Below, one piece after another: positions 11,699-28,009 of a stretch of 64,000 nt of DNA. The first letter of the stretch is position 1. Each line of letters starts with the position of its first letter. This DNA comes from an uncultured Cohaesibacter sp. GTDB lineage: Bacteria > Pseudomonadota > Alphaproteobacteria > Rhizobiales > Cohaesibacteraceae. Location of the stretch: NCBI RefSeq assembly GCF_963676485.1, contig NZ_OY781114.1, positions 2,868,501-2,932,500 on the forward strand, in the 5' to 3' direction. Position numbers and translations under genes: made by a program. The notes below the pieces were generated by a model. It made no database searches and was not told where the DNA came from. It saw nothing but the letters and a program-made list of their open reading frames with translations.

Positions 11699-11873
11699 CG
11701 CCTCCCGCGTTTGTTTGGTATGACTATAGGGGGGCTGTAGGCAAAGGACCAGTCATGTCTCTGTCTTGTAGTGGAGCGAGTGGTTGCTTGTGAAAAAGCA
11801 TGCCCGGTCTATCTGGTGGCTGTCTTGCTTTGTCTTGTATCTTGTTGTGGGGAGGTGGAAGAAGCGTTTGCCC

Positions 11874-11915
11874 AAAAAAAGATGCCCTGTCCCAGACGAG
11901 TCGGGGACAAGGCAT
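11874..11915 (-). terminator. Rho-independent terminator of the candidate small RNA
   Basis: Arms at 11882-11893 (ATGCCCTGTCCC) and 11904-11915 (GGGACAAGGCAT) pair over 12 positions with one mismatch and a 10-nt loop. On the minus strand they are followed directly by C and seven Ts (11880-11874). The orientation fits only a minus-strand transcript coming from above 11915, and no protein gene lies there. Confidence 0.85.
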
Positions 11916-12022
11916 GATTGCCACTTGGGCGGGGGGTCAAATCTCATGCAAAATCGGGGAGGAGGCAGCATGAGACTAGAGGGGGCCCCCGTCGCAAATG
12001 ACCTCGCCTCTTTGCAGAGGCT
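11874..12022 (-). ncRNA. Candidate small RNA with CCUCCUCCC hairpin loop (ar14/cuckoo-like)
   Basis: Read on the minus strand this stretch holds, in order, a perfect hairpin GCCTCT-GCAA-AGAGGC (12021-12006), a GGGGGCCCCC palindrome (11981-11990), a perfect 8-bp stem TCTCATGC/GCATGAGA (11975-11942) whose 18-nt loop contains CCTCCTCCCC (11965-11956), a C-rich single strand, and a rho-independent terminator with seven Us. There is no credible protein frame. Alphaproteobacterial ar14/CcsR 'cuckoo' RNAs are known for exactly this CCUCCUCCC anti-Shine-Dalgarno motif displayed in hairpin loops. The 5' end is a guess; a CTTGAT box at 12043-12048 could be part of a promoter. Confidence 0.65.
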
Positions 12023-12479
12023 TCGTTGGCTCACTTACAAGGATCAAGTTACGACTTTCGTCTTATTCGTAAAAGAGGTTTTATCGCCTATCAGCTTTGA
12101 TGGAGCCGCATGGCTAGGCGTTAAACTGCGGAATTTGTTAGATATTTTTACGTATTTTGGTTGTTTCTGTGGTCGTAGAAGGTCATGGCGTCCCATTCGC
12201 GCGGGTTTGGATGGATGCGCGGCTCGGAGTTTCCAAGATTCTGGAAAATCTTCAGGGCGAGGGAAAAAGGGTTGAAGCTTTTTTCGAACATGGGTTTCAC
12301 TTTCTCGTCATCATGCGTGGGCGTATATTTATGTGTCTTGAAGCTTATTTCTGCGGTTTTCCGCGGATTTTGAAGAGCCAAGTTTGCGACCCGTTTATGC
12401 GTTATATGCATGTCTTCAAATTTAATGATGCAAACATGTGAGGTTTAGGGGCGCTGACAAGGAGCATAAACCGTGGTAT
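12023..12479. other. Intergenic region, no gene supported
   Basis: About 455 bp between the small RNA and the SOS box of imuA. A 94-codon frame on the plus strand (12157-12441) and shorter frames on both strands resemble no family, lack ribosome sites and have erratic composition. I see no clear feature here apart from upstream sequence for the small RNA. Confidence 0.4.
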
Positions 12480-12494
12480 GTTCCCTCTATGTTC
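12480..12494 (+). promoter_or_regulatory. SOS box (LexA operator) of imuA-imuB-dnaE2
   Basis: GTTC-CCTCTAT-GTTC at 12480-12494 is an exact match to the alphaproteobacterial LexA consensus GTTC-N7-GTTC. It lies 16 bp upstream of the imuA ATG and overlaps the alternative upstream ATG at 12478, which argues for the later start. This places the mutasome operon under SOS control. Confidence 0.9.
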
Positions 12495-12510: not shown

Positions 12511-13179
12511 ATGTATGAGCGGTTTGATGAAGCCTTTCCTCTGAGGGGCGGGCGGGCACATGAGGTGACCGGGCAAGGCGCTGCAGTCTTTGCCGCAATT
12601 GCCTGTGGCGTTGGTGTGCGGCTGGATAAGCGGCCAGCTATGTGGCTGGTTGAAGAATGGCGGGCTGAGGGGCTTAATCCAGATGGCCTGGCGTTGTTTT
12701 GTGATCCGCGTCATGTGCTTTTGGTGCGGGTGCCGGATCAAAAGGCAATGCTGGCGTCTGCCGAAGAGGCCCTGCGGTCTGGCGCTGTTTCGACGGTGGT
12801 GGCCGAGGTGCCGCGAGAACTGACCTTCACGGCGGGGCGACGCCTGCAGTTGGCTGCAGAGGAAGGCAAGGCGACTGGCATTTTGAGTATCAACGAGGGA
12901 ATGGGCAATAATGCAGCTGAAAGCCGGTGGCATTGTACACCGCTTTTCTCCCCGAAATTCCGGCAAAATCAGGTTGCTATGCAGTCCCATCAGACTCCTG
13001 ACTCGACTCTTCAGCGCTGGCAGCTTATAAAGAACAAATCAGGAACATTAGGGTGTTGGGATCTTGTTTGGGATGCAGAGACGCGTCGTGTCATTGTGGT
13101 TTCCGAGGCTGGCGAGCGATCGCATTCTGCGGCGCGCGGTGGTGGCGACGCCTTTTGCCCTCATGTTGCAGCAGAGTAA
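12511..13179 (+). CDS. imuA: ImuA, SulA/RecA-like mutasome protein
   Basis: 222 residues from ATG 12511, preceded by TTGGAG at 6 bp; the in-frame ATG at 12478 falls in the SOS box. The sequence resembles ImuA: an N-terminal AHEVTGQGAAVFAAI stretch, the WLVEEW..GLNPDGL passage and a RecA-fold-like core ending in VVSEAG. It is always encoded before imuB and dnaE2 and is needed for damage-induced mutagenesis in alphaproteobacteria. The gene overlaps imuB by about 107 bp in another frame, a larger overlap than usual, so the two are tightly coupled. Confidence 0.88.
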   Translation: MYERFDEAFPLRGGRAHEVTGQGAAVFAAIACGVGVRLDKRPAMWLVEEWRAEGLNPDGLALFCDPRHVLLVRVPDQKAMLASAEEALRSGAVSTVVAEVPRELTFTAGRRLQLAAEEGKATGILSINEGMGNNAAESRWHCTPLFSPKFRQNQVAMQSHQTPDSTLQRWQLIKNKSGTLGCWDLVWDAETRRVIVVSEAGERSHSAARGGGDAFCPHVAAE

Positions 13180-27980: not shown

Positions 27981-28009
27981 CAGTTTTCGGGAGGAGGACT
28001 GGATTTGTA

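Follow-up and report, generated by a model that had tools for sequence, protein, structure and literature searches.

A candidate single-loop anti-Shine-Dalgarno small RNA downstream of a conserved small open reading frame in Cohaesibacter

On the minus strand of the window (the whole 64-kb stretch of DNA analysed here, from an uncultured Cohaesibacter species), we found a locus that reads from its sequence as a small regulatory RNA gene with conserved structure, for which we infer transcription and the start site. A small open reading frame (ORF) lies upstream of it on the same strand, followed by a divergent imuA gene. The features of the locus, in window coordinates, are as follows.

11874..12040, minus: putative small RNA gene of about 167 nt, with a predicted 5' end and a 3' end set by the U-run of the terminator
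11874..11915, minus: intrinsic terminator, a stem-loop followed by seven T (helix 4 of the consensus, 97.8% of cells paired)
11920..11927, minus: 3' strand CAAGUGGC of the outer helix, pairing with 11995-12002
11942..11975, minus: anti-Shine-Dalgarno (aSD) hairpin, with a perfect 8-bp stem in the window genome (fold and consensus)
11954..11966, minus: apical loop GCCUCCUCCCCGA, 12 of 13 columns invariant in 14 rows
11987..11991, minus: CGGGG strand of the inner rod helix, with its partner CCCCG at 11930-11934 (consensus fold)
11995..12002, minus: middle strand GUCAUUUG, pairing with the leader or with 11920-11927
12006..12021, minus: hairpin 1, GCCUCU-GCAA-AGAGGC, 6 pairs, 100% of cells paired in 13 distinct rows
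12019..12038, minus: leader GUAAGUGAGCCAACGAAGCC, 20 of 20 columns identical in 14 rows
12050..12065, minus: conserved DNA element TANNACNAAAGTNNTA, 12-27 nt before the leader, with dyad-like symmetry
12148..12291, minus: small ORF of 47 aa (43-44 aa in relatives), in 14 of 14 homologous loci
12480..12494, plus: GTTC-N7-GTTC box between the small ORF and imuA, in 14 of 14 loci
12511..13179, plus: imuA, divergent neighbour, in 14 of 14 loci

A preliminary description of this DNA had proposed a structured small RNA with an exposed aSD loop and a terminator, and these elements are present on the minus strand, as it had named. The 175-nt stretch folds at -71 kcal/mol (z -4.85; none of 200 shuffles is as good), and a first-order Markov estimate gives 0.0003 expected occurrences of the 10-mer in 175 nt of the minus strand. 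The perfect 8-bp stem is formed by UCUCAUGC (11968-11975) and GCAUGAGA (11942-11949) on the minus strand, and its loop holds GCCUCCUCCCCGA. Other details of that description held in part. The helix of the GCAA-tetraloop hairpin (hairpin 1) is kept among homologues, but the GCAA letters vary; the GC palindrome GGGGGCCCCC at 11981-11990 (minus) is present in the window but is not conserved, occurring in 1 of 14 homologous rows, the window's own. The terminator has its stem, which contains internal mismatches in the window genome, at 11882-11915 and its seven T at 11874-11880. A simple consensus terminator scan listed three sites nearby, all on the plus strand, and not this one, and a promoter scan returned no sigma-70 match on the minus strand here. 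Conservation falls off after the terminator, with 0 of 40 columns invariant past the U-run (14 rows). The region had also been described as free of protein frames; ORFs called mechanically do run across the RNA (for example, one of 93 aa at 11753-12034, minus), but the 1-nt insertions and deletions that separate homologues, and the covariation of the pairs, weigh against a coding role. The invariant leader, a long-range helix, and the upstream small ORF did not figure in the preliminary description. The window's own genome holds one copy of the RNA.

We counted paired positions over 14 homologues, which comprise 13 distinct sequences. The automatic consensus contained 45 pairs; we omitted two inside the aSD loop, and the remaining 43-pair structure was the one counted and modelled. 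It consists of four helices: hairpin 1, a rod made of an outer helix (GUCAUYUG...CRRRUGRY) and an inner helix (CGGG...CCCG), the aSD hairpin, and the terminator. Across the 13 distinct rows, 97.1% of 556 cells are paired (99.4% for helix 2, the outer plus inner helix), compared to 32.5 to 50.3% in a control with the partners slid. Double changes occur in 27 cells, against a shuffled mean of 9.9, and no shuffle out of 500 is as high. Of the five covariation measures, two differ little or not at all from the shuffles: the number of pairs with double changes (8) is reached by 23 of 500 shuffles, and further pair types are not raised, with 393 of 500 shuffles reaching the same number. The rows are relatives of one another and were themselves the source of the structure, so these controls lean in its favour.

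The aSD stem varies among homologues, with 90.6% of cells paired over its nine pairs and double changes at four of the nine (13 distinct rows). The loop is one base shorter in two of the 14 rows (G013 and G008), which carry CCUCUCCCC. It is apical and mostly unpaired in all 14 single-sequence folds, where its mean unpaired probability is 0.63 to 0.81; the lowest single-base values, 0.01 to 0.33, are due to the two pairs predicted inside the loop. In the consensus fold, the RNA has one CCUCCUCCC and one aSD hairpin; the motif is absent from the terminator, which forms a hairpin of its own.

The leader is a candidate second seed, protein site, or switch strand. When we looked for long complementary targets, no other match with 3 or fewer mismatches in 19 was found on either strand, and a pattern tolerant of G-U pairs matched 14 places in seven genomes; seven of these places are the gene itself, and the other seven share no target across genomes. 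Within the RNA, the leader could pair through GUAAGUGA with the strand UCAUYUGC, forming a leader helix in which 94.2% of cells are paired; 5 of 13 rows lose one A-U pair, and no compensatory change is seen. In the outer helix, 100% of cells are paired, and 5 of 13 rows carry a double change at one pair. The two helices share the middle strand and are mutually exclusive; the lowest-energy folds of the 14 rows contain the leader helix in eight (including the window), the outer helix in four, and neither in two. Given its complete pairing and its covariation, as against 94.2% and no covariation for the leader helix, we prefer the outer helix as the conserved one on these sequence grounds and keep the leader pairing as a possible alternative state. 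A structural switch by competing helices is a possibility in the modelled folds.

In all 14 loci, the stop codon of the small ORF lies 109 to 200 nt before the leader, on the same strand. The ORF is very likely a real protein gene, given a pooled pN/pS of 0.35 and the distribution of variable columns over the three codon positions (22, 19, and 37 of 44). Its product had no match in Pfam (three versions, E ≤ 10), NCBIfam (two versions, E ≤ 10), or PHROGs (two versions, E ≤ 1), and hhalign gave a probability of 0.6% against eight DUF1127 proteins of the genus, with thin profiles. The AlphaFold2 model consists of two short helices, and its mean pLDDT of 67 and pTM of 0.26 are too low to support a fold search. 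Over 199 genomes, the small protein had six strong matches, all in Cohaesibacter, and three weak partial matches elsewhere (E 0.001 to 0.009), which we judged to be chance. Among the four Cohaesibacter genomes that lack the RNA, matches to the protein were weak in three (E 0.06 in G005, 0.02 in G009, and 0.4 in G011) and absent in G017; none of the four has a credible full-length match to the small ORF or to the RNA, and the two co-occur.

The stretch between the small ORF and the RNA is poorly conserved and varies in length. Within it, 9 of 22 columns are invariant in the block from -36 to -14 before the leader; three blocks lying further upstream have one or two invariant columns apiece, and the block that follows has 3 of 12. 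The element at 12050-12065 is perhaps a promoter or activator site of the RNA. Upstream of the small ORF, we also noted ATGCATATAACGCAT at 12397-12411 (minus), a conserved ATGCAT...GCAT palindrome followed by a conserved GCAAACTTGTCTCTTC-like stretch; the palindrome is a possible promoter or regulator site.

The setting next to a glycerate kinase and an SOS operon, as previously described, recurs among the homologous loci: a glycerate kinase gene lies downstream in 12 of 14 and the divergent imuA in all 14, the imuA product scoring 34.7 bits against the NCBIfam ImuA model, below its cutoff of 150. We rejected cis-regulation of the glycerate kinase by the RNA, since the downstream gene is of the YaiI type in the remaining 2 of 14 loci. 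The GTTC-N7-GTTC box, which we take to be LexA-type, probably belongs to imuA. SOS control of the RNA was not adopted because the box is on the imuA side, with 203 to 339 bp between it and the start of the small ORF downstream.

By BLAST over 61 genomes, 14 of 18 Cohaesibacter genomes have a homologue of the RNA, and none of 43 others of the order does; two of these 43 belong to the same family. We then built a covariance model, R1 (166 positions, 43 pairs), from the 14 homologues; it scores 189 bits at the window locus, by construction, since the window row is one of the 14 it was built from. When R1 was run over 297 genomes of the order, it matched 10, all Cohaesibacter, nine of them at 149 to 199 bits, in a search with stricter filters that may therefore miss weak distant relatives. 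The tenth match, in G011, is weak (32.3 bits, E 1e-4). We did not count this genome as a carrier, because the match is a similar terminator hairpin alone, with no leader and no C-rich loop, and because R1 also scores the opposite strand of the true terminator at 26 to 31 bits in four genomes. G011 has imuA (47% identity) and the LexA-type box, with a cytochrome-c-like gene beyond, and lacks the small ORF and the RNA there. The four Cohaesibacter genomes without the RNA are 64% (G005), 90% (G009), 94% (G017), and 99% (G011) complete; a search for imuA at E ≤ 0.001 gave nothing in G005, G009, and G017, which may therefore lack the entire neighbourhood. Plasmid and phage collections gave no match to the RNA. 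A scan of genome contigs for the leader-plus-loop pattern returned four loci, three in Cohaesibacter and one in a Pedosphaera metagenome-assembled genome, which is probably a chance match. A literature search, in which most subscription papers were out of reach, returned no paper on this RNA by title or abstract start and none on small RNAs in Cohaesibacter.

The preliminary description had assigned the RNA to the ar14/cuckoo type, which our comparisons did not bear out. The founder of ar14 is NfeR1 of Sinorhizobium meliloti, and the accessible part of its description gives ar14 three aSD hairpins, each with CCUCCUCCC (PMC10746234); the window RNA has one. Scored over 601 bases, the Rfam ar14 model (RF02344) gave no match at its cutoff: the window RNA reached 18.4 bits (E 0.37), 40 bits under the gathering score of 58.8. 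Of six sub-threshold Rfam matches, the one to ar14 was the best. The whole window had no Rfam match at gathering scores, and a search of the window's own genome with ar14 (E ≤ 10) returned five matches, the window locus not among them. Three of the five are over the cutoff (91.8, 88.8, and 77.2 bits), each behind a DUF1127 ORF, and two are weaker (31.7 and 21.5 bits). The 31.7-bit match is a two-loop CCTCCTCCC/CTCCTCCC locus (L019, 1501-1602) with no DUF1127-like frame in the 420 bases upstream, and similar sub-threshold ar14 matches occur in five relatives. Within the window, the only other minus-strand CCTCCTCCC is at 27989-27997.

Over the whole genus, ar14 exceeds its cutoff in 18 of 18 genomes, with 37 such matches and six below. 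We examined motifs and ORFs in 23 ar14 loci, the three own-genome copies and 20 of the 34 in relatives. A text-pattern search found a DUF1127-type ORF in 22 of them. Exact copies of CCTCCTCCC number three in 14 loci, two in six, and one in three, so the exact count is not a strict membership test, nine of the 23 having fewer than three. The leader of the window RNA shares an 11-nt sequence, CCAACGAAGCC, with the last hairpin of one own-genome ar14 copy (L016); the same sequence begins that hairpin in nine of the 23 copies (L016 and L077-L084, eight of them in relatives). This identity hints at common descent, though it arose in 31 of 2,000 Markov shuffles.

We favour the reading, with a probability of about 0.65, that the locus encodes a trans-acting aSD small RNA that would be cuckoo-like in mechanism and locus plan and would belong to a family of its own, found in our searches in Cohaesibacter alone. 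The computations show that the RNA structure is conserved, that the loop is conserved and mostly unpaired, that the small ORF is conserved, and that ORF and RNA occur together; pairing with targets, their repression, and whatever role the small protein may have are what we infer. The hairpin rod would hold out the single C-rich loop, which would pair with the Shine-Dalgarno region of target mRNAs and block ribosome loading. The 5' end of the RNA would probably arise by cutting from the 3' end of the small ORF mRNA or by a start from the element at 12050-12065, and the invariant leader would probably be a second contact site. Blocking of Shine-Dalgarno sequences by the single loop appears the most likely action and is proposed by analogy with NfeR1. 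In the part of the NfeR1 report available to us, that RNA lowers ntrB expression via CCUCCUCCC, a variant mutated in three motifs does not, and the three motifs redundantly silence mRNAs at ribosome sites (PMC10746234). Our search for strict Shine-Dalgarno targets in the window's own genome, with the pattern GGGGAGGAG-N4-10-ATG, gave none that is convincing: the pattern occurs in three places, one inside the RNA gene on the opposite strand and two that open frames of 25 and 12 codons.

Alternatively, the locus may be a genuine ar14/cuckoo RNA left with one hairpin after the loss of the other two, its partner gene having been replaced or having changed too far to be recognised. The rank of ar14 among the sub-threshold Rfam matches, the same loop motif, and the plan of a small ORF followed by an RNA are all in keeping with such descent, as are the CCAACGAAGCC shared with one own and eight relatives' last hairpins and the loose number of exact CCTCCTCCC within ar14 itself (14, 6, and 3 of 23 loci). 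Yet those ar14 loci pass the Rfam cutoff over the full model, whereas the window RNA falls far below that cutoff, and the small protein does not resemble DUF1127 (hhalign 0.6% with thin profiles, and no Pfam match). Together with the chance rate of the 11-nt match and the ar14 copies over the cutoff already carried by every genome of the genus, these points make ar14 descent unlikely. It is also conceivable that the locus amounts to no more than the end of the small ORF mRNA, a structured 3' untranslated region with its terminator, and has no function in trans, as its position on the same strand past the ORF stop in all 14 loci and the co-occurrence of ORF and RNA would fit. A terminator, however, needs neither a nearly invariant C-rich loop nor a 20-nt invariant leader, and the spacer between ORF and RNA differs in length among loci and is poorly conserved apart from the element shortly before the leader; we consider this explanation quite improbable.

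Least probable of all, in our estimate, is that the C-rich loop acts as a sponge or decoy for GGAGG-bearing RNAs or for an RNA-binding protein rather than as a direct mRNA repressor. Such a role would suit a C-rich loop that is short, nearly invariant, and carried on a hairpin rod, and an RNA sponge reportedly described in Caulobacter provides a precedent; the experimental precedent for the motif itself, NfeR1, is mRNA silencing, as far as the accessible text goes (PMC10746234). A further version, which we regard as doubtful, though less so than these three alternatives, treats the locus as a new type of small-protein/small RNA unit divergent from SOS mutagenesis genes, composed of an uncharacterised 44-aa protein and a bistable single-loop aSD RNA. 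The leader and the 3' strand would compete for the middle strand, leaving the leader either free, as a second seed, or locked, and the aSD loop would stay exposed.

If the favoured reading of a distinct single-loop aSD RNA is true, the combination of an aSD loop with a small-protein partner arose more than once, or diverged strongly, in Alphaproteobacteria, and the partner protein of such an RNA need not be DUF1127. With one loop rather than three, the RNA would offer a simple case for testing whether one aSD loop is sufficient, and for learning what is contributed by an invariant leader and by a competing helix.

CcsR RNAs carry the aSD loop motif, and co-transcription with the small ORF and processing by RNase E are among the marks of a cuckoo/CIN1 locus. 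At the CIN1 locus of Rhodobacter sphaeroides (ccaF1-CcsR1-4), a small-protein gene is followed by the RNAs on the same strand, according to the accessible part of its description (PMC10253847). The window locus, as far as that description reaches, resembles CcsR/cuckoo in having a small-protein gene directly upstream of an aSD-loop RNA on the same strand (14 of 14 loci), and differs in that its small protein does not match DUF1127 in Pfam or by hhalign. The DUF1127 ORFs before ar14 loci imply that the CIN1 arrangement, as so described, is present in Cohaesibacter and that the window locus is a different, parallel unit. AbcR1 and AbcR2 have partial aSD loops, in the accessible portions of two papers (PMC3927594, PMC10746234); on that account, the window RNA shares an aSD loop with them and differs in that no Rfam family matches the window at its gathering score. 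Compared to ar14, the window RNA carries a single aSD hairpin, set on a long rod, together with a 20-nt leader that is invariant and a separate terminator, whereas the last aSD hairpin of the ar14 copies examined seems to double as the terminator. The window RNA thus falls short of the Rfam cutoff and lacks the three hairpins and the DUF1127 partner, but shares two ar14 features: CCUCCUCCC lies exposed and unpaired in a hairpin loop, and the RNA stands behind a small ORF, as the Cohaesibacter ar14 copies do.
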